DNA of 20,275 nucleotides, taken from NCBI GenBank assembly GCA_030064795.1, contig JASJEI010000305.1:1-20275 (forward strand). The letters are read 5' to 3'. This document shows positions 2,075 through 20,275 of the stretch, one piece after another. The DNA is from Pleurocapsa sp. MO_226.B13. Its GTDB lineage: Bacteria > Cyanobacteriota > Cyanobacteriia > Cyanobacteriales > Xenococcaceae. The position numbers and the translations under genes are program-made. A model generated the notes under the pieces. That model was not told the DNA's origin. It searched no databases and worked only from the letters and a program-made list of their open reading frames with translations. Position 1 is the stretch's first letter. Each line of letters begins with the position of its first letter.

Positions 2075-2519
2075 TACAAATGTCTTAGTTTATGCTCACG
2101 ATAAAGACTCTTCTTTTCATACAGATTCCGCATCGTTACTTCAATTAGTTTTTTCTGGTGAGGTTAGAGGAATTATCGCCGAGCAAAATATTATCGAGCT
2201 TTATCAGGTTCTCACAAATCCAGTGGCGATGAGGAAAAAGCCTCTAACCCCATTGCAGGCAGCAAATTTAATTTCTCAAACCTACAGAAGCGGAATTTTT
2301 GAAATTGTCTATCCCAATAGTTCCACGACTGATAAAGTTTTGCAGCTAGCCATTGATGGTAATGTTACCTCAGCTAAAATATTTGATACTCGTCTGGCAG
2401 CTATGATTCTCCATACGGATACAGACTATTTCGCTACCTATAACGTCAAACATTTTAAAGAGATCGAAGGCTTGAATTCTCTTACTCCAGAACAGATTTT
2501 GACGAATTTGCCTCAATAA
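2049..2519 (+). CDS. VapC-like PIN-domain ribonuclease toxin
   Basis: A 156-residue PIN-domain protein. Three acidic residues of the metal site are in place: D9 in 'FFDTNVLVYA', E50 in 'NIIELYQVL' and D113 in 'KIFDTRLAA'. The final strand 'YFATYNVKHFKEIEGL' is the usual closing motif, with Asn132 in the expected position and His rather than Asp at 135. PIN toxins of this type cleave RNA, commonly tRNA. The full-length, undisturbed frame contrasts with the two damaged toxins in this window. Its 3' end runs 38 nt into the 3' end of the opposite-strand ThiF gene (2482-2519), so the two messages are complementary at their tails. Confidence 0.8.
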   Translation: MNLRKIFFDTNVLVYAHDKDSSFHTDSASLLQLVFSGEVRGIIAEQNIIELYQVLTNPVAMRKKPLTPLQAANLISQTYRSGIFEIVYPNSSTTDKVLQLAIDGNVTSAKIFDTRLAAMILHTDTDYFATYNVKHFKEIEGLNSLTPEQILTNLPQ

Positions 2520-3378
2520 CAGCTCTCGCCCTCTCAACTATGCGATCGATGTTTTCCTGACTAATCCAGGTAGACTTCATCGAACCACGAAAGAGATCCA
2601 CCTCTACCTGCATCTGCTTTAGCTGAGAATTGAGTAGCTGATGAACCATTTCTCCAGCAGCGATCGCCATTTGCGAGTTGATATTGAGGCTTTGCCCGTT
2701 TAGTAAAGCTCGTTCCGCGCAGGATAGAGTTTCATTGTCATCGGTTTGTAGCAGCAGTTCGGGATATTGAATGGTTGGTAAAGGTAAAGTGGTACAGGTA
2801 GCAGGTTCTAGAATGTAGTCATCTAACTCTACTGAATAGTGATTACCAATAGCTACCTGACCGTAGGTATACTCATTACCACAGTCAATCCACCAGCAGG
2901 GTATCTGACTAAATCCGTGAGCTATTAGACCAGAATATTCGACCATCAACTCTTCAATACTTTTTCTGGCAGCAGCATTATCTACACAGCCAATAATTAC
3001 CGTCGGCGCACTGCGGTCGAGACTAACTGCCGATGCCCGATCTGCGATCGCGCCAATCTTTAGTTTGGGAAACATAGCTTTGTAACGTACAGCTAAAGCC
3101 TGGGCTTTGTTGTAGCCTAATTCAGCCTGACAAAAGTTCTGGCGGTAAAGGTTTTTCTCTTCAATGCGATCGAAGTCAATCAGGGTAATCGAGATCTGTT
3201 TGTCCGCAGCGTCGAACCAATTGGCTAAACGACAGAGATGAGGTACCAGAAAGCTACCAGTTCCACCACAGCCAACTACATAGATACTAACCGAGGGGTA
3301 ATTAAAATAGATCGGTTTGGCATTGAGAATCGACAAGTCAGAAAATTCTAACTGTAGATGTTTAGAAAGGGATGACAT
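2482..3378 (-). CDS. PRTRC system ThiF-family (E1-like) adenylyltransferase
   Basis: A 298-residue member of the ThiF/MoeB/E1 fold. Visible motifs: the nucleotide-binding loop 'VVGCGGTGSF' (about 34-43), the acidic 'LIDFDRIEEKNLYRQNF' (about 66-82) with the Arg-Gln pair that contacts ATP, the 'LGYNKAQAL' lysine segment (about 88-95) and 'GCVDNAAAR' (about 130-138). E1-like enzymes of this class adenylate the C-terminus of a ubiquitin-like or sulfur-carrier protein. Several cysteines follow (for example in 'PATCTTLPLP'), but I cannot say which, if any, forms a thioester. It is the last gene of the cassette and starts inside the 3' end of the JAMM gene (17-nt overlap), so the two are translationally linked. 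Order and neighbours match the ParB-related, ThiF-related cassette. Confidence 0.88.
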   Translation of the reverse strand: MSSLSKHLQLEFSDLSILNAKPIYFNYPSVSIYVVGCGGTGSFLVPHLCRLANWFDAADKQISITLIDFDRIEEKNLYRQNFCQAELGYNKAQALAVRYKAMFPKLKIGAIADRASAVSLDRSAPTVIIGCVDNAAARKSIEELMVEYSGLIAHGFSQIPCWWIDCGNEYTYGQVAIGNHYSVELDDYILEPATCTTLPLPTIQYPELLLQTDDNETLSCAERALLNGQSLNINSQMAIAAGEMVHQLLNSQLKQMQVEVDLFRGSMKSTWISQENIDRIVERARAVIEANSSKSVLE

Positions 3379-3937
3379 GGAAACAATAACTGTTGATATT
3401 TTGATAAATTCGGTCAGAAGCTATTTCTAAAAATAGTCCGTGGGCGCAGACTCTGCTGGCTATTTCTAGCTGGTTATTACTCCTGCCAATTACCGTACTG
3501 ATTCTGCAACCATTCTCTTCTCGGTCGTCGGTAGCAGAAAAGAACGCCCTCATAGCTCCGTGACTGTGAATTTCAATAGCAGCTGGTTCGGGATGCTGTT
3601 CTAAACTTATGCAGGAAGTGGGAGTACATTCTTGTTCGGGACATATTACCTCCCAAGCAGTACCTCTCCAGTAAAGATAGAATAGCTGTTCTAAATTTGG
3701 GTATTGGTTAATGCGATTGATAATAGCTTCAACCTTGTTCTGTGGAACATGTGGAACTATTAGTTCAAAGCTTGGAGATAATTCAGCTAGACCAGGAGTA
3801 GTAACCAGACTATGAGCTATGGTTGCGTTAAATTCGGTTCTTTTTACCGAACGAAAAATACCATTTCCAGCCCAAAGATAACCAGGAGGAAGATCTGTAG
3901 CTGAATCTGGCTTAACTATGGAATGATTTATTAACAC
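3362..3937 (-). CDS. PRTRC system protein A, JAMM/MPN-type metallopeptidase
   Basis: A 191-residue protein with an exact JAMM zinc signature, H-x-H-x7-S-x2-D: H124, H126, S134 and D137, in 'EIHSHGAMRAFFSATDD'. JAMM/MPN proteases cleave isopeptide or peptide bonds after ubiquitin-like modifiers; in eukaryotes they include Rpn11 and CSN5. Residues 1-100 hold the N-terminal beta part typical of PRTRC protein A (the 'PPGYLWAGNGIFRSVKR' region). The chosen start is the GTG at 3937, since no good ATG lies nearby. It lies 16 nt after protein B and overlaps ThiF by 17 nt. In this setting it would be the modifier-removing or modifier-maturing peptidase, which is inference from the family. Confidence 0.88.
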   Translation of the reverse strand: MLINHSIVKPDSATDLPPGYLWAGNGIFRSVKRTEFNATIAHSLVTTPGLAELSPSFELIVPHVPQNKVEAIINRINQYPNLEQLFYLYWRGTAWEVICPEQECTPTSCISLEQHPEPAAIEIHSHGAMRAFFSATDDREENGCRISTVIGRSNNQLEIASRVCAHGLFLEIASDRIYQNINSYCFHVIPF

Positions 3938-3953
3938 GGCTTGAGAATTCTAT

Positions 3954-4595
3954 TTAATATTTTGCGGTGGTTTGAGCCAGGGCAGCTAAAGTTAAGTTAG
4001 TCGAGACTAAATCCCGTTCTGGATAGACTGTGTTTGAGCTTTGAGCTACGTCTTTTAGCTGAGAGACGACATTGTAGGGATGGGCTTGAGATTTATGATT
4101 ATCGTAATCTTGGTTAAATTTCGATGTGACAAAAGCGTTCCACATCGAACTCGGACTGTCCTTTGGCAAAGCCACATTACCCCAACAAACCTTGCCACGA
4201 TCGTCAATATTGGGCAAAGGGTAATGATATAAAGTCGAACTAAGATTAAGCTCTCCTTTATAAGCGTAAACCCAAAGTTGGCTTTGGCAGTGTACGATTA
4301 CCGCCCCAGGCAAGGGGACTCCTAAACAAAAAGACTCAAACTTTAGTAGATAGGTGTTAGGCAGAACCGAACTAATGGTCGTAGTTCTTCCCTCTTTTCT
4401 AGAAATGTGATGCAGCCTTACCTGTGGGTGAACGTACCAATCAGACTGAAAATCCGACTGTGAAATAGCCCCAATTAAAGAAGGCAGATCGATTTGTTTG
4501 ATTAGAGTCTCGCCATTTTCTCGCGCTACAAACAAAACCGAATCCTGCTGCATAATCAGGAACGCCTGAGATTGTTCGATTAGCTGGGAAATCAT
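3954..4595 (-). CDS. PRTRC system protein B (E2-like fold)
   Basis: About 213 residues from the ATG at 4595; an in-frame TTG at 4628 would add 11 residues, but the ATG has a better AGG spacing. The central and C-terminal part carries the pattern of PRTRC protein B: 'LPLPGAVIVHC', 'LWVYAYKGEL', then 'YPLPNIDDRGKVCWGNVALP'. That last segment strikingly resembles the E2 active-site block of ubiquitin-conjugating enzymes (H/Y-P-N-I...G-x-[IV]-C-[LW]), with C137 (ATG numbering) at the catalytic-cysteine position. The Pfam Prok-E2 family D, as I recall it, is built from this protein. It should act in the transfer step between E1-like ThiF and a target. The 3' end is 16 nt from protein A. Confidence 0.8.
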   Translation of the reverse strand: MISQLIEQSQAFLIMQQDSVLFVARENGETLIKQIDLPSLIGAISQSDFQSDWYVHPQVRLHHISRKEGRTTTISSVLPNTYLLKFESFCLGVPLPGAVIVHCQSQLWVYAYKGELNLSSTLYHYPLPNIDDRGKVCWGNVALPKDSPSSMWNAFVTSKFNQDYDNHKSQAHPYNVVSQLKDVAQSSNTVYPERDLVSTNLTLAALAQTTAKY

Positions 4596-4642
4596 AATAT
4601 ATGCCTGGTGTGAATCAGCTTCGTTCAAAGTTTATTAGTTCA

Positions 4643-4835
4643 TAGCTATTAGCTATTAGCTTTTAGCCTTTAGCTTCGGTTTAATTGCTATATGCGTAGC
4701 GATATCTATGAGGATATGACACAAGCGCGCGATCGCGTATATGGTGGCGCATTCGCGTCGTGTATTAGATAGAGTTTAAGACTGCTCGCTCTATTTGATT
4801 TAGAGCTAATAGCTAATAGCTAGGAGCTAATAGCT
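4643..4835. mobile_element. MITE-like element bounded by inverted heptad repeats
   Basis: The left arm (4643-4675) and right arm (4802-4835) are each built from about five heptads of the form AGCTATT with variants. The left reads AGCTATT, AGCTATT, AGCTTTT, AGCCTTT; the right, on the opposite strand, reads AGCTATT, AGCTCCT, AGCTATT, AGCTATT. They form imperfect terminal inverted repeats of about 33 bp around 125 bp of non-coding DNA that includes GCGCGATCGC at 4727-4736. No ORF lies within. It fills nearly all of the 206 nt between the F-position gene and protein B; elsewhere the cassette genes overlap or lie within 20 nt of each other. A non-autonomous mobile repeat inserted into an operon explains this best; tandem-repeat expansion is an alternative. 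Confidence 0.6.
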
Positions 4836-5506
4836 CAGGCAAAGCCTGTTATTTGGCGGAAGATTTGTGAGATCGCAGGCTGGGCAATACCAGGATTGGC
4901 ACAAAACCAGTCATCAAAAAAGTGCAGTCTGACTAAAAGGGCTGAGGCTTGCCTGTATTCTTCTTCGAGCCTTAAAACCTCGGTTTCGCTGAGGGTATAT
5001 TCGTTGTCTCCTTCTATATGACTATCCAGCCACAAATTGCCAGTCATTGCCCAAACGTAACGAACTACATCTGGTAAAATGCTCAGAGGATGACTGTCTG
5101 GCAACGGGCTTATTACTCGCTCGATTAAACTCAGTGCATTGTAATCGTAGCCATAGTAGTCAAAACACTCATCGCTAGTCATACGGACAAAATACCATCC
5201 AGCACCCTCGCCATAGTAATAATAGTCATAGCTATCAAAACCCGATGGGCAAATTGAGATTTTTCCCAATCCTGTGTAGGGTCTTTCCCTGGTATTTTTA
5301 TAGTAGTCACGCTCGCAGTCGTAGCAGGGAAAGCAGTGTTCGTTGAGCAGGTCTATCAGCCGAATATCAATTTGTTCCAAGGCATCATCATTTAAAATTA
5401 GGTTGGCACCCAGTTGGCAATACTCTTCTGGAAACAAATCTTTGGTTGCTTGAAGCCCGTTATACCTGCGAGATAATTGCCTAGTTCTTTCCAGCAAAGA
5501 TCTCAT
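4835..5506 (-). CDS. PRTRC-associated protein in the F position (unknown function)
   Basis: About 223 residues from the ATG at 5506. That ATG overlaps the stop of protein C in an ATGA, whereas the longer reading from TTG at 5533 lacks such a link. Its place between C and B is where PRTRC protein F sits in the canonical cassette, but I cannot confirm homology by eye, so the F assignment is positional. The sequence is rich in aromatic residues: one 32-residue region (about 90-122 from the ATG) has at least ten Tyr, including a run of four within 'DSYDYYYYGEGAGWYF'. The C-terminus (DDWFCANPGIAQPAISQIFR) is helical. Cysteines at about 61, 64 (CYDC) and nearby could bind metal. No catalytic motif recognised. 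Confidence 0.6.
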   Translation of the reverse strand: MRSLLERTRQLSRRYNGLQATKDLFPEEYCQLGANLILNDDALEQIDIRLIDLLNEHCFPCYDCERDYYKNTRERPYTGLGKISICPSGFDSYDYYYYGEGAGWYFVRMTSDECFDYYGYDYNALSLIERVISPLPDSHPLSILPDVVRYVWAMTGNLWLDSHIEGDNEYTLSETEVLRLEEEYRQASALLVRLHFFDDWFCANPGIAQPAISQIFRQITGFA

Positions 5507-5940
5507 ATTAAGGGTCGAACTTTTGTCGGGCAATAGTACAGACGAACGATTAAAGAGCGAATTTGCCTTTCTCTATGTGATAGCATTTGCTCAATCGCCT
5601 CAAGATCCCATCCTTCATATACTTCTTCCCATTGGGCAATGGTTAGTTCTTCGGTGGGCTGTTGGTTAAAATTTTCAATTCTTAAAGACAAATTATCTTC
5701 AGGACAGGCTTTAAGCAATTTAACTAGAGCATTACTGCCTTTAGTGCCTACCCGTTTAATAATTTTAATCGAACCATCTTCTTTTCTTTCTATTTTTCCC
5801 CCAGCCATACCAGGAAAACCTACCGATAACAAACTAATGATTTGTTCGTCATCTAGCCCCTCAAGTTTGGCAGCATCGACGGCATAACTTTGCCCTTCGT
5901 ATTCAATTTTTATAGCGTTTTTATCATTATTTAAAGTCAT
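5503..5940 (-). CDS. PRTRC system protein C, ubiquitin-like domain with C-terminal extension
   Basis: A 145-residue protein. Residues 8-68 ('IKIEYEGQSYAVDAAK' through 'KRVGTKG') match the short PRTRC protein C: a beta-strand start, a central 'SVGFPGMAGGKI' turn segment and the ending 'VGTKG', the block I associate with the Pfam Prok_Ub (prokaryotic ubiquitin-like) family. Protein C is normally about 60-75 residues and stops around that glycine. Here a further 77 residues follow, acidic and helical (TIAQWEEVYEGWDLEAIEQM), then a basic hydrophobic end. It starts 2 nt after protein E and overlaps the next gene by an ATGA. The likely role is a modifier or its partner; whether the tail is removed is unknown. 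Confidence 0.72.
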   Translation of the reverse strand: MTLNNDKNAIKIEYEGQSYAVDAAKLEGLDDEQIISLLSVGFPGMAGGKIERKEDGSIKIIKRVGTKGSNALVKLLKACPEDNLSLRIENFNQQPTEELTIAQWEEVYEGWDLEAIEQMLSHRERQIRSLIVRLYYCPTKVRPLI

Positions 5941-5942
5941 GG

Positions 5943-6281
5943 TTAAATTAAACTTTTAGCAAATTTTACTTTTTTAGTTTTCTTGGTAGTTTTAGTGGTT
6001 TTATTTTCAATCGGCTTTACTTTACGTTTGCCGTTATCTTTAAGCTTTTGTTTGGTGACTTGACTATTTTTGTCTTTGACATCAAATTCAGACAGCAAGC
6101 CCGCAACGGCAAGGTTCAAATCTTCAGGCATCTTGTCATATCTAGCTATTGTCGGAAAAACCCCCTCATACCCAATAGCTAAAGTAAATATTTGCTCCTG
6201 GAAATCGAAAACAAAGCTTACTTTTAGCGGATGCTTACACTCTCTTATTAGGTCAGTTAGAGTAGATGTTGGTTCACTCAT
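5943..6281 (-). CDS. candidate PRTRC system protein E with lysine-rich tail
   Basis: A 112-residue protein, first of the cassette on this strand. The N-terminal 65 residues (LTDLIRECKHPLKVSFVFD ... LAVAGLLSEFD) have the alternating-strand look of PRTRC protein E, and the position before C fits. Residues about 70-112 are a basic tail with some 17 lysines in blocks such as 'KTTKTTKKTKKVKFAK', likely disordered and suited to DNA contact or to acting as a modification acceptor. The gene ends 2 nt before C. Because the domain is short and divergent, the E call relies on order as well as pattern. The 77-bp gap to the divergent gene at 6359 must hold both promoters. Confidence 0.55.
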   Translation of the reverse strand: MSEPTSTLTDLIRECKHPLKVSFVFDFQEQIFTLAIGYEGVFPTIARYDKMPEDLNLAVAGLLSEFDVKDKNSQVTKQKLKDNGKRKVKPIENKTTKTTKKTKKVKFAKSLI

Positions 6282-6358: not shown

Positions 6359-7372
6359 ATGGACAAATCAATAGTCGAACAGTGCCGAGAATATTATCCC
6401 ATGACCTTTTATCCAGATAGTTTATCTGAGATACTATCTAAAGTTAATAGAGTTCGAGAACAAAAGAATCCTATCTTTCATCTCGAACCAATACCTTTAA
6501 TAATTAAACAAATTCATTACTATAACGATATCAGTTTAAAACAGTTTTACTGTGGATGCTCAACTGCATTTTTATTACTGTTAGCAACTGTTAATATTTT
6601 TCTATCAAATAGAATAGCAGCTTTAGCTTTACTGCTGCTAACCGCGATCGCTTTCTTTTGCTATTGCAGCTTACAAAGATATAAAAACAATCTCAGAAAA
6701 GAATTAACTATTATCGGAAACAAACTATCATACAGACAATATACAATTAAAAATAAATATAGCATTAATTCAACATCCAAACTATCGACTCTACTATTAG
6801 ATTCTTTAGCAGAAAGAGAAAATATTTATAACTTTAAAATCGACGATTCGGCAAACAAAGGTCTGTCTGAATCTTATTTTATAAGTTATTTACAAAAATG
6901 GTTTGACTATCCTTGGCGTATTATCGAACACTGTCAATTTCAAGGTGAGCGTTATACTCCCACCGCAGATTTTATTCTAATTAATGACGATCTCAAGCTC
7001 GGTATCGACTTAGAAATAGACGAACCTTACACCATCAAAGAATCTATGCCCATTCATTTAGTTGAAGATCGCAAATATATTATTAGAGATAAATTCTTTT
7101 TGGGGTTGGGCTATATTGTGATTCGCTTTGCTGAATATCAAATTGCTAAGTACCCCGACTATTGCTGTCTGCACATCGTCAGAGTACTAAACCAATTTTT
7201 AGATCGAGAGTTGAAAATTAGCGTTCCTCAAGGAACTGAAATTCAGCCTTTAAAGCCTCAAGACTGGAGGGTTAAAACTTGGACATTAAAAGAAGCTAAA
7301 ATTATGTCGGAACGTAAGATTAGAGATAGTTATTTAGAACCAATAAGAAGCTTTATAAAGGATAGAGAATAA
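6359..7372 (+). CDS. membrane-anchored protein with Vsr/DUF559-like endonuclease domain
   Basis: A 337-residue protein divergent from the PRTRC cassette. Residues about 66-104 form two adjacent hydrophobic segments (for example 'FLLLLATVNIFL' and 'ALALLLLTAIAFFCYCSL') separated by a short 'SNRIA' turn, so a membrane hairpin. From about 165 to 265 the sequence follows the Vsr/DUF559 restriction-fold pattern: 'TADFILI', 'LGIDLEIDEPYTI', a later 'EDRKYIIRDKFF', and 'LGYIVIRFAEYQI'. The order is acidic residue, then D-x-E-x-D, then R-D, then a hydrophobic-RF strand. Predicted metal ligands are D204, E219 and nearby acids. Such a domain would cut DNA; being tied to the membrane makes it unusual. 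Substrate unknown; a catalytically dead binding domain is possible. Confidence 0.65.
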   Translation: MDKSIVEQCREYYPMTFYPDSLSEILSKVNRVREQKNPIFHLEPIPLIIKQIHYYNDISLKQFYCGCSTAFLLLLATVNIFLSNRIAALALLLLTAIAFFCYCSLQRYKNNLRKELTIIGNKLSYRQYTIKNKYSINSTSKLSTLLLDSLAERENIYNFKIDDSANKGLSESYFISYLQKWFDYPWRIIEHCQFQGERYTPTADFILINDDLKLGIDLEIDEPYTIKESMPIHLVEDRKYIIRDKFFLGLGYIVIRFAEYQIAKYPDYCCLHIVRVLNQFLDRELKISVPQGTEIQPLKPQDWRVKTWTLKEAKIMSERKIRDSYLEPIRSFIKDRE

Positions 7373-7856: not shown

Positions 7857-8411
7857 CTAATTATTTAGATCGGCTACCTTCTGTCCGAAGAACCTAGAGC
7901 CTCCAGTAGTAAATAGCACCGCACTAACTAAAGCTCTTTTTTGAGCCATTTTATCGATGGTGTTTAAAATGTCGGGAGAATAGGCTTTGACGTATTTAGA
8001 TTCTCGATTGTTACAGTTACCAAATCCATTGCCGACTATTACGTTCGTGTAACTTAGCTGACATTCATAGGCATAGTAAAAGACATTATGCTCGAAGTCC
8101 AATCTAGTTTGAGCCAAAGGAATCATACTATAGTTCAAACCAAAGAAACGACAGATTTTCTCTGCCCCAGCTTTAGTCAGAGTAAAAGTATCCCCTTTTC
8201 GACTGGGAATCAGCCTACAGTCTATATTTGCTTTAAATCCCGCTAGTAAATTTCGATACTGCTGAAAATAGGTTTCCGTATCGACTGTAGTTGCGCCTAA
8301 ATGAGCTAGAAGGGGTACGTTTTGACTTTGCTGAGGAATTAGCTGACCTGAATTAGTTGCAGGTGTAAACTGGCTATTACTAAGATATTGTTGGCGATCG
8401 ATAGGTTGCAT
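7857..8411 (-). CDS. possible single-strand annealing-type DNA-binding protein
   Basis: About 184 residues from the ATG at 8411 (a TTG three codons upstream is weaker). The N-terminal 35 residues are Gln/Ser/Asn-rich and likely disordered. From about 80 on the order is 'LTKAGAEKICRFFGL', a beta-rich 'FYYAYECQLSYTNV', then 'FGNCNNRESKY', then 'ILNTIDKMAQKRALVSAVLFTTGGS'. The last block (an NTI..MA.KRA.V helix) recurs in phage and plasmid proteins with a Rad52-like DNA-annealing character, where a conserved helix ends the fold. This is pattern memory, not a proven family. Location next to helicase and recombination-type genes is consistent with a role in DNA replication or repair of the element. 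Confidence 0.45.
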   Translation of the reverse strand: MQPIDRQQYLSNSQFTPATNSGQLIPQQSQNVPLLAHLGATTVDTETYFQQYRNLLAGFKANIDCRLIPSRKGDTFTLTKAGAEKICRFFGLNYSMIPLAQTRLDFEHNVFYYAYECQLSYTNVIVGNGFGNCNNRESKYVKAYSPDILNTIDKMAQKRALVSAVLFTTGGSRFFGQKVADLNN

Positions 8412-8467
8412 TGTTGACAATAATTATGTTCGCGCTTCAAAAACCCGTAAGGGTAACGAAATATTGG

Positions 8468-9103
8468 TCAATCAATTGCTATTTCTGGAATACTTTCTAT
8501 ATCCAGTAAGGGATCGAATTTTGATTCGGGTTCTGAGACTGGGTTTAAATCTTCACCACGAACGAGCAAAGCAAGTCGTTCGCTTAACTCCTGTTGGCAG
8601 ATTTGAAAATCATTATCCCCAAACAGCCTTCTAATGAAGTTAATTCGCATATCTTCATTCAAAGGATTGGCAATCAAACTAACAACGGAAATATTTCTGG
8701 GTATAGAACTCAACCTTTGAGATAGGAGATAGGCTTGAGCTATGGCTATACAATCGCTCTCAATCCCCGACCAATCAATAATTATAATTTCATTTTCCCT
8801 ATTAACAGTAAAATCTATGCTCGAACTAATCCAAATACCCTCTAGGGCAATCGCGACTTGATATTCCCAATGTTTGACCCAGCGATTGAGAAACATTTCT
8901 GGTAAAAACAAAGAGCTTTCTGTGACCAAACGAGCTAGGTAAGAATTATTTTCCAATATCTTTTCTGGGGCAATCTTTAAACTTATTTGCCTTAAATAAG
9001 TTCTTAATTTTGAACTAACTGGCATTCTTTCAACATCTAGATAGAGTTCGTTCAAATCGACAACTCTAATTCCTGTTGCTGGTTGCTTTTCAATCTTAAT
9101 CAT
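8468..9103 (-). CDS. possible degenerate RecB-fold protein
   Basis: A 211-residue protein downstream of the helicase. Residues about 70-130 show a helix, then 'SSSIDFTV', then 'IIIIDWSGIESDC', then 'AQAYLLSQRL'. In RecB/Cas4-type PD-(D/E)xK nucleases the matching order is a hydrophobic strand with Asp, a 'IxDyKT' strand, and a Q-x(n)-Y helix. Here D97, D110 and Q123 are present, but Ser replaces the usual Lys after the DW, so it may bind DNA or a partner without cutting. The C-terminus is acidic. The terminator-like hairpin at 9117-9156 separates it from the helicase, though read-through could link them. Confidence is limited because the match is short. Confidence 0.4.
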   Translation of the reverse strand: MIKIEKQPATGIRVVDLNELYLDVERMPVSSKLRTYLRQISLKIAPEKILENNSYLARLVTESSLFLPEMFLNRWVKHWEYQVAIALEGIWISSSIDFTVNRENEIIIIDWSGIESDCIAIAQAYLLSQRLSSIPRNISVVSLIANPLNEDMRINFIRRLFGDNDFQICQQELSERLALLVRGEDLNPVSEPESKFDPLLDIESIPEIAID

Positions 9104-9116
9104 CTACGTTGAAACC

Positions 9117-9156
9117 TAAAAATACTGCCCCTAGTACTCCCGCCAGGGACAGTATT
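9117..9156 (-). terminator. Rho-independent terminator after the helicase gene
   Basis: On the minus strand a stem of AATACTG-x-CCC pairs with GGG-CAGTATT around a 14-nt loop and runs directly into TTTT. It begins 12 nt after the helicase stop codon, which is where a terminator for that transcript should be, and before the next gene's ATG at 9103. Confidence 0.7.
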
Positions 9157-9167
9157 CGCAGATCGAT

Positions 9168-10901
9168 TCAACATTTAGAGAAACTTTTTAAATTAAGCTC
9201 TATTCTTTTACCTTGCTCCAGTCGAATCAACTTAGCGTAATGCTCTAATTCTTCATTTGAAGCAGCAAGAATTTTTTCTTCAACTAAATCTCCGTCAGAA
9301 TCGGCTGTGGTTTTTTCTACCAATACTAGATCTCGCTGCGAAGATCGATTGCCATCAAACCAGAAAGCATCGCCGATCAAAAACAGGTCCTTGGTACTGC
9401 GTGAAAGGGCAACGTAAAGTAAATTCTGTTCCTGTTGTTCCTGCCATTGTTTCTGGTTTTCCCAAATTAAAGGTAATGTTAAAGGCTCGGCTATATATAC
9501 TCTTTCGCTTTCCATCCCCTTTGCTCTGTGAACAGTTGATAACAAAACCGCCTCATCATCTTCCGAGCCAAATAACTGCCTAATCTTAGAGGCTAATTCT
9601 GCTATCGACTCACTCTGAAAATGCTTATAAATCGCCTCTACTGCTTTAATTTGGTCTTTCAACTGTAGCAGTAAAATCGCCCCACTGTCGTTCTGTTCGT
9701 AAATAGACTGTTTGAACTTCAAATATATTTGAGCAAACTCAGCAAACTTTTGATATTCAAACCCTGTCTGTTCGGCAATGTCTTCTAAAAGATTCAACAG
9801 ATCTTGTTGCAGAGAACTGCCGACTAAATTACAGGGAATACCTCTGGTTATCATCTTCAAATGAAGGTCTACTAAGCTGCTGCTACATCTGGCAATCACT
9901 AAGTCCCCTGGCGTAATTCGACTATCTTTAGTCTCATCCCATAAATCCCATTCCTGAATAACTTTAATAGTGCCTAAAGGAGCATTTTCTCTCGATACGA
10001 TAGGAATCTCAGGACAGAGCTTGTTAATTAATTCGATATGAGTTTTAGGACATCGATAGCAGACTGGCAGAGTAAATTCTAGAGCCTGAAGTCTGGTTTG
10101 AATATTGCTAAAGCTATCGGTATCCGCCCCACAAAATCCATTGATAGATTGAGCGGGATCGCCGACAAATAGCATTTTGGCTTGGGAATGAGCCAGAGAC
10201 AATACAAATTCAAGCTGTAAACGGCTCATATCCTGAGCCTCATCAACCATTACTCTTTGAGCATACTTAAATCCTGGGCTTTGGTTTACCTGCCAAACTA
10301 CAGGCAGCCAAAGCATATCAGTATGGTCGATTCTTGCTCCATTTGCAGCAGAATCCATACCCAGCTTAAATAGATAGTCGATTCTCTGACTAATTTGGGC
10401 TAAATGTTGTTTGTTGATATCTAAAGCATAGTGTTCGATCGTCTCAGACAAAGCTTGAGGAGTCAAAGGTGATAGGGTCAACCGAACGAATTCAAACAGT
10501 TTCAGGAAATTACTCAGACTGACAGCCTTAGCCTGCTTGGGATTGCTACCGTTAAACCAGTCTAAACTTTTAACTAGATGTCTATACTTTGATTCTTCTA
10601 CTTCTAAACGTCTCACCCCAAGATATTTTTTCAACACCCGATACCCCGCGCTGTGAACGGTAGAAATCGAGTATTGCCAACGAGAGTCGAGCTTTTTAAC
10701 TAGGGCAGTCTTATTCTTTTTATTAAAAACCAATACCAGGCAGTCTCGGACATTTACGTTACTCGCCGAAATAGCATCAGCAGCCAGCTTGAGTAGCGTG
10801 CTTTTTCCCGAACCAGCTACGGAATTGACCACGGCATCAGAAAAATTAGAATCAGCCTGTAACCAATCAATTACTTGTCTCTGATGAATGCTTGGTTGCA
10901 T
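9168..10901 (-). CDS. UvrD/Rep-type superfamily 1 DNA helicase
   Basis: A 577-residue helicase with the SF1 motifs in order: Q-type start 'HQRQVIDWL' (6-14), Walker A 'VAGSGKST' (28-35), Ia 'STVHSAGY' (about 80-87), II 'VDEAQD' (219-224), III 'FVGDPAQSINGF' (about 245-256), IV 'CYRCPKTH', V 'LLSTVHRAKGMES' and VI 'LLYVALSRST'. It should unwind DNA with ATP, 3' to 5' as in UvrD/Rep/PcrA. It is shorter than UvrD or Rep (about 670-720), so the 1B/2B subdomains are trimmed, as in plasmid and phage relatives. It lies with primase, annealing and nuclease-like genes on the same strand, which suggests element replication or recombination. Its ATG is at 10901 and a terminator follows the stop. Confidence 0.9.
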   Translation of the reverse strand: MQPSIHQRQVIDWLQADSNFSDAVVNSVAGSGKSTLLKLAADAISASNVNVRDCLVLVFNKKNKTALVKKLDSRWQYSISTVHSAGYRVLKKYLGVRRLEVEESKYRHLVKSLDWFNGSNPKQAKAVSLSNFLKLFEFVRLTLSPLTPQALSETIEHYALDINKQHLAQISQRIDYLFKLGMDSAANGARIDHTDMLWLPVVWQVNQSPGFKYAQRVMVDEAQDMSRLQLEFVLSLAHSQAKMLFVGDPAQSINGFCGADTDSFSNIQTRLQALEFTLPVCYRCPKTHIELINKLCPEIPIVSRENAPLGTIKVIQEWDLWDETKDSRITPGDLVIARCSSSLVDLHLKMITRGIPCNLVGSSLQQDLLNLLEDIAEQTGFEYQKFAEFAQIYLKFKQSIYEQNDSGAILLLQLKDQIKAVEAIYKHFQSESIAELASKIRQLFGSEDDEAVLLSTVHRAKGMESERVYIAEPLTLPLIWENQKQWQEQQEQNLLYVALSRSTKDLFLIGDAFWFDGNRSSQRDLVLVEKTTADSDGDLVEEKILAASNEELEHYAKLIRLEQGKRIELNLKSFSKC

Positions 10902-11056: not shown

Positions 11057-11459
11057 TTATGATTCCCAATCCTCAAGAGTCAATCCCTCAATTCGTTTAA
11101 ACTCCTCAATATTATGAGTTACTAAGATTAGCTCGTTGACTGAGGCAATTGAAGCGATTTGTAAATCCTTGATACCAATCATTTCTCCTTTGGCTGACAA
11201 CTGAGCATTTAATCTACCAAATACCAACGCGGCAGCATCATCAAAAGGCAAAGATACAAAAAGACTGAGAAATTGCTGCTGTTTTCGGTAAGTGCGGTCG
11301 GGGTTTTGGCTTTTGAATGCACCATATGAAAGTTCAGACTTAACAATCGAACAGGCAAACACTTGAGGAGCGATCTACTTCTCTAAATTTTTTTCTAATT
11401 GGAAGCGAACGCCCATTGAGATATCTAGCCCAAACATTTGTATCTAGCAGGTACGTCAT
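11057..11459 (-). pseudogene. VapC-like PIN toxin, frameshifted
   Basis: From the ATG at 11459, which overlaps the antitoxin stop in an ATGA, the first frame reads MTYLLDTNVWARYLNGRSLP and onward through about residue 33, a proper PIN start with the first catalytic Asp. The homology then switches to another frame at about 11363-11375, continuing as VFACSIVKSELSYGAF with the second acidic residue, then 'MIGIKDLQIASIA' and 'LVTHNIEEFKRIEG', ending with the stop at 11057. The frame of the second part contains an in-frame TAG just upstream, so a one-base shift after GTAGATCGC is needed. The 101-residue piece from GTG 11362 alone lacks the first Asp. A sequencing error is possible. Confidence 0.75.
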
Positions 11460-11677
11460 GCTATTTCTTTCTGATTTTCTTCTTCCACTAAAATAGGGTC
11501 GTCTGACAAACAACCGTAAAAACTGTCTACAGTGGAACGAAGCTCTTCCTTATTGGGTTGTTGAGTAGATTGATAAACGACAACTAAATCTAATTCCTGG
11601 TTAGCTAATTCTGGAGGTAGCTGTAAGCTCAATTTGCCATCTGCATCGACTTTAGTTTTTAAACTGATAGTATTCAT
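11456..11677 (-). CDS. VapB-like antitoxin
   Basis: A 73-residue protein from the ATG at 11677; an upstream GTG at 11725 would add 16 residues unlike any antitoxin start. The beginning (MNTISLKTKVDADGKLSLQL) and 'PPELANQELDLVVVYQ' form the two-strand AbrB/VapB-type pattern 'G-x-L-x-L-x-L-P-x-E'. The C-terminal half is acidic with 'LSDDPILVEEENQ'. It ends in ATGA overlap with the damaged VapC, so the pair was a VapBC module. The antitoxin itself looks intact. Confidence 0.7.
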   Translation of the reverse strand: MNTISLKTKVDADGKLSLQLPPELANQELDLVVVYQSTQQPNKEELRSTVDSFYGCLSDDPILVEEENQKEIA

Positions 11678-11789
11678 AATTTCATTTACTTGAACTACTT
11701 CGATAATTATAGTTTTTCTGCTCACATCGCTTTAAAAACAGCACTCTTTACGAGCTCCTTTAAATGAATGAAAATCAAGACGATCCTGC

Positions 11790-16664: not shown

Positions 16665-16775
16665 CCTGCAATATGTCCTTACCCAAGCTAATTACTCACT
16701 AATTCTACAACTTTTAGTGTAAATAACTTACCTTCTACGTAGTAAACTTTTTACAGGGGATTTATCGTTTTGGTT

Positions 16776-16808
16776 TTGGGTAAGGGGGAAAGGGTAAGGG
16801 GAAAAGGG
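16776..16808 (+). repeat. purine-rich G-run tract before the recombinase start
   Basis: The 33 nt before the recombinase ATG are made of G-runs separated by A or T (GGGTAAGGGGGAAAGGGTAA and continuation). It holds the likely Shine-Dalgarno sequence. Similar GGGAAAGGG tracts are scattered through cyanobacterial intergenic DNA, so this may be a repeat relic rather than a dedicated signal. Confidence 0.4.
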
Positions 16809-17852
16809 ATGGCAATTAGACGATCGAACAAAGATAGTAGATTAGAGCATAGCGATCGCCGTTCTCTTGCTACGGTTTCTACTTTACCTACTGTCAAAGC
16901 GATGTGCGACTGTTTTGACAGATATCTTAACCTAACTATTGCCGATGGTCATGCCAGTAACGATACAGTTAAAACTTATAGCAGTCGGGTTCATCAATTT
17001 CTTAGTTGGTGCAGGGAGCGAGAACTTTATCCTGCATTGGTTACAAAGGATAATATTCAAGAATACCGCAAACACTTGGTTGATGGTGAAAAAACTTCTC
17101 CGACGATTCGTTTGTCTTTACTGGCTATCAAGCATTTTTACACAGCTTGTTTGGCTCAGAAGTTGGTCAAGGGTAATCCTGTTATTGGGGTGAAAGCACC
17201 AAGAGAAAGGCGTGAAGTTGGTAGCACGATTAATTATTTATCTCTTGAAGAGTTACAGCAGATATTCGATCGCATCGCGCCTACCTTAAAAATTCGCGGA
17301 GATAAAACTGCCAAAGTACAGGTTTTGCGCGATCGCATCTTATTAGGCTGTATGGCTTTACAAGGATGCCGTAGCATTGAAATGTACCGAGCAAACTTAG
17401 GAGATGTTAGCGAATCCTACGGTCAACATTTTCTCAAGCTAGATGGAAAAAATAGCATCCGAACTGTCGTTTTAAGATCCGATTTGGGAGAAGAAATAAC
17501 TCGGTATCGACAAGCTCGTGTAAAAAGTGGAGAAAAGGTAAATGCTGGTTCTCCTTTTTTCATCTCTTTATCAAATCGTCGTTACGGTCAAAGACTATCC
17601 AGAAGAGGAATTAGTTTTATTGTCGATAGTTATTTGTCTGAGTGCGGTCTAAAACATAGCGATCTAGAGCGCAGTCTTTCTCCGCATAGTCTACGTCACA
17701 CCGCAGGTACTTTGAGTCTCCAGAATGGTTCTTCTTTGCGAGAGGTTCAGGATTTTTTGGGACATAGCGACCCTAAGACCACTGCTGTCTATACTCATGT
17801 TCTTAGCTCTCAAGATAATAATCCTGCCACAAAAATTGATATCAGTTTTTAG
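16809..17852 (+). CDS. tyrosine recombinase (XerC/D-like), candidate integrase of the element
   Basis: About 347 residues from the ATG at 16809; a TTG at 16770 gives a poorer, G-tract-encoded start. The N-terminal SAM-like core-binding domain runs to about 130 ('FDRYLNLTIADGHASNDTVK' and 'YSSRVHQFLSWCRE'). The catalytic domain has all six residues: R188 in 'QGCRSIEM', K214 in 'LDGKNS', H293 and R296 in 'PHSLRHTAG', H319 in 'LGHSDPKTT' and the nucleophile Y328 in 'VYTHV'. It should break and join DNA at specific sites. As the last gene before chromosomal-type genes, it is the likely integrase. Alternatives are a resolvase of plasmid multimers or a chromosomal Xer homologue. Confidence 0.88.
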   Translation: MAIRRSNKDSRLEHSDRRSLATVSTLPTVKAMCDCFDRYLNLTIADGHASNDTVKTYSSRVHQFLSWCRERELYPALVTKDNIQEYRKHLVDGEKTSPTIRLSLLAIKHFYTACLAQKLVKGNPVIGVKAPRERREVGSTINYLSLEELQQIFDRIAPTLKIRGDKTAKVQVLRDRILLGCMALQGCRSIEMYRANLGDVSESYGQHFLKLDGKNSIRTVVLRSDLGEEITRYRQARVKSGEKVNAGSPFFISLSNRRYGQRLSRRGISFIVDSYLSECGLKHSDLERSLSPHSLRHTAGTLSLQNGSSLREVQDFLGHSDPKTTAVYTHVLSSQDNNPATKIDISF

Positions 17853-18145
17853 CAGTTTGCAGAACAAAATTGTACTTGGGGTTTGAGTAGGTGCGATTCG
17901 TTGACGTAAATAACCGCTTTTTTAGCTCTCATTATATTTACTCACAAAATCTTTCGTTCTTACTATTTTTAGTCGCTAGCGATTACCTGATTCTTGGATC
18001 GCCAAAAGCGTGCAAGACCCGATAAATGCCGTAATTTTTCAGAGCTATTTGTCCCTACTGTTAGCCTGCTTAAGTTAGTTGGAAAAATATTAAATTGTCA
18101 TGGCGACCTGTTACTATTGGATCGCCGTCATGAACAGTGAAAAGG
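17853..18145. other. 293-bp gap that may hold the element's right boundary
   Basis: Nothing coding is convincing. A 5-bp GGCGA/TCGCC inverted repeat (18102-18126) lies just after the minus-strand aspartoacylase stop and could be a weak terminator. No tRNA gene or fragment is visible, so an integration site could not be located from sequence alone. The region is A/T-rich around 17915-17970. Confidence 0.4.
18102..18126 (-). terminator. weak terminator candidate after the aspartoacylase gene
   Basis: GGCGA at 18102-18106 pairs with TCGCC at 18122-18126 around a 15-nt loop, about 20 nt past the aspartoacylase stop on the minus strand. A T-rich run (ATTTAATATTTTT) lies further downstream on that strand rather than directly adjoining, so termination would be inefficient. 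Confidence 0.3.
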
Positions 18146-19039
18146 TCAGGTTAGCTGCCTGGTGGTACTAAAATCTTCTGGACGGGTAATAAACATCGCA
18201 ACCCCTTTTTCGTAATACGCAGATTCATTAATAAAAATGGGATATACAACTGAATCATTTTCATATACAATCTCCTGACCATCAAACGTTAAAAACATCG
18301 GTTCTCCAGGATTCAGAGCTTGATAATCTCGAAATTGTAGCTGAGGATGAATCATGGCTTGAATTTCTCCAGCCTCATTCCTGGGGTAATCTATCGTGCC
18401 AATGCTTTCGTAAACCACGAGTGGATCTCTTACTTGAGGCGGCACACCTTGGTTATAGGCTTGCACATAATCAAGAATTGTGTGAATAAGTTTTTCAGTC
18501 TGCTGGAATAAATTGGCATCTAATATTCCTTGGGCAACAGCACCAACTTCAATTGTGCAACCAAATTCACAAATCGAGTCTAGATAAGAATCGTCTTGAG
18601 TTTTGGGTGCTGAGTAAAGTACCTTGATGTTTGGATTTACATCACAAAGATAGGCTGCTAGTTGTAAGTTAAATAGTTTCTTGCTTGCCAGAATAATTGT
18701 TAATCCCATGTTAGATGTTGTGCTGTGTAAATCAACAACTAGATCGGCTGGTCGATTGCCTCCAGTCCCAAAGGTTTGGTGTATCACTTTAGCTCTCTGT
18801 GCTTCGTAACTTGACAGTTTGAGATTGTTCAAACAGGAGCTTTGAAAACAACGATTTAGATCGGTGTCAACATATCGTTTCCCAATTTCATATGCTTTCT
18901 CGTTGGCTAGTAAAGTACAAGTCTCAAAGCTTTCCCTCTGGATTAACTGAGGCTCACGTTCAAATTTTTTAACCAGGTAAATTCCTGTAAGCTCATTGCC
19001 GTGTGTCCCCCCGACAATAAGAGTTCGCTTAATGTTCAT
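18146..19039 (-). CDS. aspartoacylase-family metallohydrolase
   Basis: About 297 residues from the ATG at 19039. The longer reading from a TTG at 19162 adds 41 residues unlike the family, whose members begin just before the first zinc motif. Visible: 'LIVGGTHGNELTGIY' with the zinc-binding H..E pair, 'VDTDLNRCFQ' with the substrate Arg, 'LVVDLHSTTSNMG' with the third zinc ligand His, and 'TIEVGAVAQG' holding the catalytic Glu. Members deacylate N-acetyl- or N-acyl-amino acids; the exact substrate cannot be told from sequence, and the family also includes succinylglutamate desuccinylase relatives. The sequence is full length and undisturbed and reads as chromosomal DNA. Confidence 0.85.
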   Translation of the reverse strand: MNIKRTLIVGGTHGNELTGIYLVKKFEREPQLIQRESFETCTLLANEKAYEIGKRYVDTDLNRCFQSSCLNNLKLSSYEAQRAKVIHQTFGTGGNRPADLVVDLHSTTSNMGLTIILASKKLFNLQLAAYLCDVNPNIKVLYSAPKTQDDSYLDSICEFGCTIEVGAVAQGILDANLFQQTEKLIHTILDYVQAYNQGVPPQVRDPLVVYESIGTIDYPRNEAGEIQAMIHPQLQFRDYQALNPGEPMFLTFDGQEIVYENDSVVYPIFINESAYYEKGVAMFITRPEDFSTTRQLT

Positions 19040-19070
19040 AGTTGTAAAAATAAGAGGGACTAAGAGGGAC

Positions 19071-19087
19071 GCTGAGGTTTCCTCAGC
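19071..19087 (-). promoter_or_regulatory. leader hairpin upstream of the aspartoacylase start
   Basis: A perfect 7-bp GCTGAGG/CCTCAGC stem with a 3-nt loop lies 32-48 nt upstream of the aspartoacylase ATG on its strand. Two near-identical GTCCCTCTTA decamers follow it, then a T-rich run. If transcribed, the hairpin could act as an attenuator or message-end stem; equally it may be a relic of a dispersed repeat. Confidence 0.35.
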
Positions 19088-19233
19088 TTGTCCAATCGAC
19101 TTGTTAAGTTCATTAGTTCTATTATAAGATTGCAGTTTAAATATACTACAAGCTGGTCTCAAGTTTTTGCAACAAAACCAGAATTTTTAAACTTTTTGCG
19201 ACAGAACCCGATTTCCGAAGAATCGAGATCGCT

Positions 19234-19638
19234 TTATGATTGGTGAAATGCTTCTTGTTCTTGACAGTCGGCGCATAAACCAAAAAATTCTAAAGTATGA
19301 TAGTAAACCTTAAATTCCTGAGATTGAGACCAACGATCTAATTTACCGTTTATCGGACAACTATCGATAACAATCGAACGCTGACAGTGAAGACAGTTGA
19401 AGTGATGTTGCTGATGTAACGAAGTAACACTATACAAAGATTTACCTTTGATACTAATTCGTTCTTGGATTGAGCCTTGTTTGTGAAGACTTTTTAATGC
19501 ACGATAAACTGTTGCTAATCCGATCTTTTTGCCTTGACGTTGTAATTCTAAATACAAATCTTGAGCATCAATTTCTCTTTGAAGTTGTTTGAGGAAATCA
19601 TAAACAGTTTTGTGACTGCTGGGTTGTCGAATTGACAT
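19234..19638 (-). CDS. zur: Fur-family metalloregulator, Zur (FurB)-like
   Basis: A 134-residue Fur-type repressor. The DNA-recognition helix is at 'KKIGLATVYRALKSLHKQG' (about 37-55). The C-terminal dimerisation domain has H78/H79 in 'HQQHHFNCLHC' and two CxxC pairs, C82/C85 and C122/C125 ('GLCADC'), which hold the structural zinc; C94 in 'IDSCPINGK' and H114 are further ligand candidates. The 'SCP' and 'YHTLEFFGLC' segments are what I associate with cyanobacterial Zur/FurB rather than FurA or PerR, so a zinc-sensing role is likely. The start is the ATG at 19638, with a 16-bp palindrome 40 nt upstream that may be an operator. It is adjacent to folE on the same strand. Confidence 0.7.
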   Translation of the reverse strand: MSIRQPSSHKTVYDFLKQLQREIDAQDLYLELQRQGKKIGLATVYRALKSLHKQGSIQERISIKGKSLYSVTSLHQQHHFNCLHCQRSIVIDSCPINGKLDRWSQSQEFKVYYHTLEFFGLCADCQEQEAFHQS

Positions 19639-19677
19639 AAAGCTAACGTCCGTAAATTGAAATGGGCGAACACAAAT

Positions 19678-19693
19678 ACAAGAGATCTCTTGT
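19678..19693. promoter_or_regulatory. 16-bp perfect palindrome upstream of the Zur-like gene
   Basis: ACAAGAGATCTCTTGT is a perfect dyad located 40-55 nt upstream of the ATG at 19638. It has no following T-run, so it is not a terminator. A dimeric regulator, perhaps the Fur-family protein itself, could bind here. It does not resemble the cyanobacterial Zur consensus (TGATAAT-type), so the identity of its binder is open. Confidence 0.45.
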
Positions 19694-19758
19694 GGAAACT
19701 GTTGATGGAGCTAGAGACTGACTAAGCTACGCTTTGTATCTTCTTCAGTCAGAAATAA

Positions 19759-19783
19759 AGAGATGAGCTTAATACCCATCTCT
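19759..19783 (-). terminator. Rho-independent terminator after folE
   Basis: AGAGATG and CATCTCT are complementary arms with an 11-nt loop that can pair further (GG with CT-flanking bases). On the minus strand the stem is followed by TTTATTT. It begins about 20 nt after the folE stop at 19804, so it fits the end of that message. Confidence 0.6.
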
Positions 19784-19803
19784 AACAATGACACGCACAT
19801 CAA

Positions 19804-20275
19804 TTAACGCAACCCAGGATTGTGGCGAATTAAACTCATAAACTCCTGACGGGTTTTAGCATCATCGGCAAACACACCCCTAACCGCACTGGTAGAAGTC
19901 CAAGAACCAGGTTTTTGCACTCCCCGCATCACCATACACATATGGCTGGCTTCTACTACTACCGCTACACCTTTAGGTTGTAATAATCCTTGGAGTGCAT
20001 CGGCGATTTGAGCGGTTAATCTTTCCTGTACCTGCAAACGTCGTCCGTACATTTCACAAATACGAGCAATTTTGGACAGTCCGATTACCTTACCATCGGG
20101 AATATAAGCTAGGTGAGCGCGACCTAAAATGGGCAAGATATGGTGTTCGCAAGAGCTAAATAAGTCAATATCCCGAACTAAGACCATTTCATTAGCATCT
20201 TCGTGAAATACTGCTCCATTGAGCAATTCGTCTAAGGATTGATGATAGCCAGAAGTCAGAAACTTTAAGGCTTTG
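19804..20275 (-). CDS. folE: GTP cyclohydrolase I (5' partial, runs off the right edge)
   Basis: The frame is open to the window end, so the protein enters from beyond 20275; 157 residues are seen. It converts GTP to 7,8-dihydroneopterin triphosphate, the first step of folate and pterin synthesis. Diagnostic blocks: '[23 protein letters not shown]' with the zinc Cys and His, '[20 protein letters not shown]' with the catalytic segment, '[20 protein letters not shown]' with the second zinc Cys, and 'STSAVRGVF' near the end. It is the zinc-dependent FolE type, not FolE2. Its stop lies at 19804, with a terminator directly after. The Zur-like gene downstream on the same strand is 165 nt away, so they are probably separate units. 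The N-terminal 60 or so residues are outside the window. Confidence 0.9.

Follow-up and report, generated by a model that had tools for sequence, protein, structure and literature searches.

The window analysed here covers positions 1 to 20,275 of contig JASJEI010000305.1 of the cyanobacterium Pleurocapsa sp. MO_226.B13. Its minus strand carries, at 2482-6281, six genes which, according to the list of open reading frames (ORFs), form one cassette in the order E-C-F-B-A-ThiF. The initial annotation had seen a six-gene cassette in this place, and all six genes are indeed found there on that strand. Protein E (5943..6281, 112 aa) is an ORF named from its position. It is followed by protein C (5503..5940, 145 aa), in which a ubiquitin-like (Ubl) domain (residues 1-68) is joined to a helical tail of 77 residues. 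Protein F (4835..5506), likewise named from its position, was taken to start at an ATG, whereas the ORF list places its start at a TTG at 5533. A spacer with inverted repeats (4629..4834) lies between F and the E2-like protein B (Prok-E2_D, 3954..4595), for which an ATG was again preferred to the TTG at 4628 of the ORF list. The JAMM metallopeptidase A (3362..3937), recognised by TIGR03735, PF14464 and its motif residues, and the E1-like adenylating enzyme ThiF (2482..3378; TIGR03736, PF00899) complete the cassette.

Four relatives whose contigs are long (loci L001, L027, L028 and L029) have the same gene order, and the cassette is therefore not a chance arrangement. Its description as a compact, overlapping operon holds for C and F, whose stop and ATG overlap as ATGA, and for A and ThiF, which overlap by 17 nt, but not for F and B, which are split by 206 bases, or by 239 if B starts at its ATG. 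In five relatives (the four above and L020) F and B overlap or lie at most about 6 bases apart. The intervening 4629-4834 segment is bounded by AGCTAAT-rich inverted repeats, with arms at 4633-4661 and 4804-4832 that are 93% complementary; it is absent from the five relatives and looks like a small mobile insertion.

Hidden Markov model (HMM) searches recovered the expected families for three of the proteins. ThiF matches TIGR03736 (1.7e-37) and PF00899 (1.4e-16), A matches TIGR03735 (6.8e-12) and PF14464 (Prok-JAB, 2.1e-6), and B matches TIGR03737 (7e-18) and PF14460 (Prok-E2_D, 3.8e-21). This bears out the earlier assignment of an E1-like enzyme, a JAMM peptidase and an E2-like protein, though all three scores lie under the curated NCBIfam cut-offs of the PRTRC families (129.1/144.75 bits for TIGR03736, 45.3/101.8 for TIGR03735 and 64.8/131.45 for TIGR03737). 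Residues E83, H124, S125, H126, S134 and D137 of the JAMM motif of A are invariant in 10/10 aligned rows and Cys220 of ThiF (codon 2719-2721) in 14/14. Cys148 of B (codon 4185-4187, numbered from the TTG at 4628) is invariant in 62/62 aligned rows and is the predicted catalytic cysteine. A regular-expression count of the catalytic cysteines over 122 loci flagged 6 B and 11 ThiF proteins, among which L199 proved a false alarm on alignment; this count is not used here.

The insertion between F and B raises the question of whether the cassette is decaying in this strain, with B uncoupled and the pathway weak or silent. The insertion breaks a junction that is tight in five relatives, and broken cassettes exist elsewhere (Planktothrix L088 and L105, and G386). 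Against this, the window has six open frames with intact catalytic residues, and B retains an ATG; we regard decay as unlikely. Among other loci, L088 and L105 have no JAMM gene, L088 also has a truncated ThiF, A is continuous with ThiF in L019, and L024 and L025 carry stops in B.

Proteins C, E and F match no family in the HMM libraries, F giving two chance-level Pfam rows (best E 0.053), and a PDB sequence search with profiles of C, B and A returned nothing below E 0.07. The ubiquitin-like nature of C, asserted in the initial annotation, draws its support from profile comparison: against ten PRTRC-type C proteins (seven annotated as such) hhalign gave an E of 2e-5 and a probability of 77%, with an alignment running through the final GTKG. 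The structure model of C comprises a Ubl-like unit, a low-confidence linker with GTKG (predicted local distance difference test score about 64) and a helical tail, and its residues 8-66 superpose on ubiquitin 1-75. As for the two further proteins of the operon, the genes of E and F are present, have no family and are placed by position only. Homologues of E, 37-94% identical, occur in L001, L020, L027, L028 and L029. Comparison of E and F with canonical PRTRC E and F by hhalign was negative and does not support their identification with these proteins. The interpretation given in the initial annotation is partly supported.

Window C extends 77 residues beyond GTKG, the point at which tail-less relatives end. 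The end of standalone C proteins is GxKG or a variant, or lies a few residues beyond. In the window the motif (5737..5748, minus strand; residues 65-68) lies in the low-confidence linker between the two domains, with the predicted cut after G68, and the helical tail (5506..5736, minus strand) covers residues 69-145. Among 79 non-redundant tailed C proteins, the junction has Gly at P1 in 78, Lys at P2 in 78 and Gly at P4 in 66, and the commonest P1' residue, Ala, occurs in 19; the profile ends at the GxKG motif, so the choice of columns favours GxKG in these counts. In an alignment made without the C profile, GTKG is exact in 109/112 full-length close homologues of window C and residue 71 is far more variable.

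A gene set of this kind was predicted to be a ubiquitin-like conjugation system by Iyer, Burroughs and Aravind in 2006, as operon type 6d (PMC1779556), and a conjugation pathway as such is therefore not a new proposal. Type 6d combines in one operon a Ub-like protein with a terminal conserved glycine, an E2-like protein with a conserved Cys, an E1-like enzyme, a JAB peptidase and a helical protein (PMC1779556, Table 1), and cyanobacteria (Ana, Avar) are listed for it (PMC1779556). The window likewise holds E1-like, E2-like (with Cys), JAB and Ub-like genes in one operon. The Ub-like protein of 6d is small and standalone (PMC1779556), whereas the conserved GTKG of window C is internal, with 77 residues after it. 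As far as its sequence tells, window C is a fusion of a Ubl domain with a C-terminal tail, which is new with respect to the described 6d operons. Release of Ub-like domains by JAB peptidases has been proposed for phage-tail proteins and ThiS/MoaD fusions (PMC1779556); in the part of that paper available to us we did not see it stated for 6d.

The label PRTRC given in the initial annotation fits the window in part. The A, B and ThiF families are the same, and the order E-C-F-B-A-ThiF agrees with the annotation of L013 and L229; L228 differs by one extra small gene between C and F. By contrast, the ThiF, A and B scores fall under the curated cut-offs, C is extended, E and F are unmatched, and no ParB family was found among the scanned proteins of the 20-kb window, some ORFs having been scanned with part of the libraries only. 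Judged strictly by NCBIfam, the window is related to PRTRC without belonging to it; as a 6d operon it is a new variant. In two Rhizobium papers the string "PRTRC" is the plasmid name pRtrCIAT. A further comparison is with the bacterial ISG15-like system Bil (BilABCD), which has the same four kinds of protein (Ubl, E2, JAMM and E1) and whose JAMM protein, BilC, processes BilA so that the C-terminal glycine becomes accessible (PMC11354881). A JAMM maturation step therefore has a precedent in another family (PMC11354881). The profile of window A reaches the solved BilC only at E 0.91, and BilA differs from window C in having two Ubl domains. In the literature covered (titles and abstract openings, with most subscription papers outside the coverage) we found no experimental work on PRTRC or 6d cassettes and nothing on fused or tandem precursors in 6d operons.

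ThiF also matches sulfur-carrier adenylyltransferases (TIGR02356, 5.4e-10), and Ubl-E1 pairs serve both uses (PMC1779556). ThiF and C might accordingly be a sulfur-carrier pair like ThiF-ThiS, delivering sulfur instead of tagging proteins, and in L014 a gene of the phosphoadenosine phosphosulfate reductase family lies just downstream of the cassette. However, L014 is the only one of the cassette neighbourhoods viewed with a gene named for sulfur metabolism, the set includes an E2-like protein with a conserved Cys (the counted loci were chosen to have B), and 6d operons were kept separate from sulfur operons (PMC1779556). We consider sulfur delivery highly improbable.

In relatives, the tail of C is absent, 1-6 residues long, the helical domain X, another domain or further Ubl copies. 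Among fused relatives, tail length and predicted helices are conserved. In Oscillatoria L004 and Pseudanabaena L006, C has 65 residues, and behind it lies a distinct gene of 82-83 codons similar to the Nostoc and Anabaena tails. Over 174 loci the X profile (cut-off 1e-3) found X fused in 67 and as a separate gene in 42, with no match in 65. The non-matches include the window and its five nearest relatives (L001, L020, L027, L028 and L029), and for this reason the window tail counts as the counterpart of X in place and size only. Tandem Ubl domains occur in Bacillus L012 (four copies), in L146 and L224 (two each) and in L077 (Ubl-Ubl-X); window C is not among these multi-Ubl proteins. In L119, L121, L122, L123, L124, L135 and L140 in-frame non-X stretches of several kinds follow the Ubl domain and X is a separate gene.

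If the tail needs removal, cassettes without the protease are expected to be without a tail. This expectation was compared with a census of loci selected for the presence of B. The first batch comprised 178 loci with ThiF and B, from which L024 and L025 (broken B) were dropped before counting, and in 150 of which ThiF, B and C were all located. A second batch was gathered after the first result was known, from the phyla to which an Anaerolineaceae and an Acidobacteria genome belong. It contributed 24 counted loci, none from a Bacillota search, after exclusion of L231, L261, L264 and L277 (already in the set), of L291 (its contig ends before the place of the JAMM gene) and of loci without ThiF or C in the stretch. 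L149, L153 and L156 (A frame split) and L019 (A broken) were counted as JAMM-positive, and L204, tailed by regular expression, was set to bare by hand. In the set made non-redundant at 85%, which provides the counts to use, a tail is present in 0/26 cassettes without JAMM and in 79/96 with JAMM. The corresponding numbers are 0/29 and 101/121 in the first batch, 0/3 and 21/21 in the second, and 0/32 and 122/142 over all rows; the last totals include repeats (L193 and L194 duplicate the contigs of L188 and L187, and some other genomes may be duplicates). The 26 JAMM-less C proteins end in GxKG in 20 cases and otherwise in GTKA (L010), KTNG (L014, L230), MPKG (L113), GTLG (L192) or KAKG (L222).

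We think it likely that the cassette is a ubiquitin-like protein-conjugation pathway of type 6d in which the modifier is made as a precursor. Beyond the observed genes, catalytic residues, two-part C, conserved GTKG junction and tail-JAMM link, its course can be outlined in four steps. As the co-occurrence suggests, A would cut C after G68, between GTKG and SNAL, releasing a helical protein of 77 residues and a Ubl modifier of 68 residues that ends in glycine. By the known habits of their families, ThiF would adenylate this glycine and receive the modifier on its conserved cysteine, from which it would pass to the cysteine of the E2-like B and then to a target. Since C lacks a tail in 20/142 of the cassettes with A, maturation would not be the sole task of A, whose second task would probably be removal of the modifier.

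Alternatively, the tail stays on, C, with its two domains, serves as a non-covalent adaptor or carrier, and A strips Ubl from targets or acts elsewhere. The tail-less cassettes with JAMM, in which A is useful apart from tails, are consistent with this, as are the conserved length and predicted helices of the tail among fused relatives. However, the internal GxKG is nearly invariant while the residues after it vary, X is fused in some relatives and separate in others, and no non-redundant JAMM-less cassette has a tail. E1-like enzymes cannot adenylate a glycine inside a chain. A permanently retained tail therefore seems unlikely to us.

The phylogenetic distribution of tail and protease was followed on trees of a quick kind, built without a mixture model, on which 9 changes are seen for JAMM and 14 for the tail. 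A model of correlated evolution is strongly preferred to one of independent evolution (likelihood ratio 37.3, 4 degrees of freedom, p 1.6e-7), and 0/20,000 independent simulations were as extreme. The clearest contrasts are found between close relatives: in a sister pair with support 100, L285 has no JAMM and a bare C while L294 has JAMM and the tail ARA, and in a three-row clade with support 100, L113 (no JAMM, bare C, separate X) stands with L115 and L121, which have JAMM and tails of 90 and 81 residues.

Several results weigh against a precursor matured by A, and some of them favour the alternative that tail and JAMM are linked by shared ancestry, the JAMM-less cassettes being mainly one old, never-tailed clade with maturation not involved. 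One clade holds 21/24 of the first-batch non-redundant JAMM-less cassettes, and L289 later joins it. Because the JAMM-less cassettes are mostly of this one clade, the link is weaker than the Fisher values, and perhaps the correlated-evolution test, make it look; such tests can be swayed by a single large clade. The strictest test, by independent pairs on supported branches, has 6 pairs, with on average 4.7 as predicted, 0 opposite and 1.3 without difference, and gives a median p of 0.06 (range 0.03-0.125), which is not significant at 0.05; with the decaying Planktothrix locus left out, p is 0.125. For the first batch only, 3.2 of 5 pairs are as predicted (median p 0.25). On the other hand, the JAMM-less L113, L151, L088 and L285, within the mainly JAMM-positive part, are all tail-less, although the L088 locus is in decay and L151 lacks a tailed close sister. 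Conversely, the tailed L013, L228 and L190, in the mainly JAMM-less clade, all have JAMM, and the preference for the correlated model points in the same direction. We judge an explanation by shared ancestry to be improbable, and the tail-JAMM link to be strong but not closed.

The remaining points of this kind concern the counts and the proteins themselves. C was not located in 26/176 first-batch cassettes (16 JAMM-less, 10 with JAMM), so tailed C proteins could be hidden among the former, and the profile by itself did not fix 9 of the 29 JAMM-less ends of the first batch: those of L014, L222 and L230 were read by hand, and those of L010, L113, L192, L201, L202 and L204 lie beyond its last matched column. 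JAMM cassettes without a tail, as counted above, are not rare. The window tail shows no detectable homology to X: comparison by hhalign gave a probability of 0.36% with 6 tails and, with 112 tails, an E of 0.015, against 0.079 for reversed X, over a 15-residue stretch in the right place. The homology is suggestive only, and the tail is possibly a diverged X domain. In B, our own alignment shows no His at the aligned column downstream of the Cys, where a His is described as absolutely conserved in the 6d E2 family (PMC1779556); this column has no His in L007 either, a locus of Trichormus variabilis ATCC 29413 that is probably among the 6d members of the 2006 paper. Neither the B nor the C model had a Foldseek match at E<=0.001; among the 50 matches listed for each, there was no E2 for B and one ubiquitin-like domain (2lgd) for C, and ubiquitin for C and an E2 for B were ranked first by a second-look structure aligner only.

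The cassette adjoins a divergent gene on the plus strand (6359..7372, 337 aa), earlier described as a membrane nuclease, for which the HMM search gives no family. Its product is 52-82% identical to proteins at the equivalent place in L001, L027, L028 and L029. Further conserved neighbours on the minus strand (7857..10901) are two unassigned proteins (7857-8420, 8468-9103) and a UvrD-like helicase (9168-10901). Among 16 selected loci searched, the cassettes of the same four relatives adjoin the 337-aa gene, both unassigned proteins and the helicase, and none of the 16 stretches contained a match to the integrase end of the window (from 14542 on). PIN-domain genes with small upstream partners, likely toxin-antitoxin pairs, are located at 1877-2519 and 11057-11725 and flank the cassette and the replication genes. 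At 16770-20226 a tyrosine recombinase is followed by an aspartoacylase, a Fur-family gene and folE, and as these genes look chromosomal, the mobile element carrying the cassette may be integrated. The idea that a DNA clamp (PCNA-like) is the target was considered and rejected, as dnaN is not enriched in the stretches covered (14/178 loci with ThiF and B against 3/53 other ThiF loci), and the same applies to dnaX (12/178 against 7/53).

Other loci show different surroundings and arrangements. A set resembling CBASS (cyclic oligonucleotide-based antiphage signalling system), with a DncV-like cyclase and a SAVED protein, directly adjoins the cassette in Oscillatoria L004 (8880-12459), and type III-B CRISPR genes lie near that of Anabaena L003. 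Pleurocapsales LEGE 10410 has three ThiF loci of this kind (L026, L027 and L030), and some genomes of the Acidobacteria phylum have two or three B genes. In the viral contigs L143, L144, L150, L152, L154, L155, L161 and L167, B and ThiF stand side by side with no JAMM, and no C was found by the C profile.

A precursor in 6d operons may have a use of its own. A single gene would supply either modifier and X at a one-to-one ratio or several modifiers in a row, with the JAMM protein both maturing and recycling them. X is fused to or beside the Ubl domain in 109/174 loci, and the released X might for this reason be a working part of the pathway, e.g., a target adaptor replacing an E3; we offer this as a tentative possibility. 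Eukaryotic ubiquitin is made as head-to-tail arrays or as ribosomal-protein fusions that are cut after the last glycine. There the partner domain is a different one and the usual proteases are cysteine proteases instead of a JAMM metallopeptidase, and the comparison implies no common origin of the habit of fusion. The plasmid cassettes of this kind are annotated yet unexplained, and reading C as a precursor leads to one simple test-tube experiment, A plus C. If the reading is true, bacterial mobile elements would use fused or tandem Ubl precursors paired with a dedicated protease gene, which would bear on the origin of ubiquitin processing.

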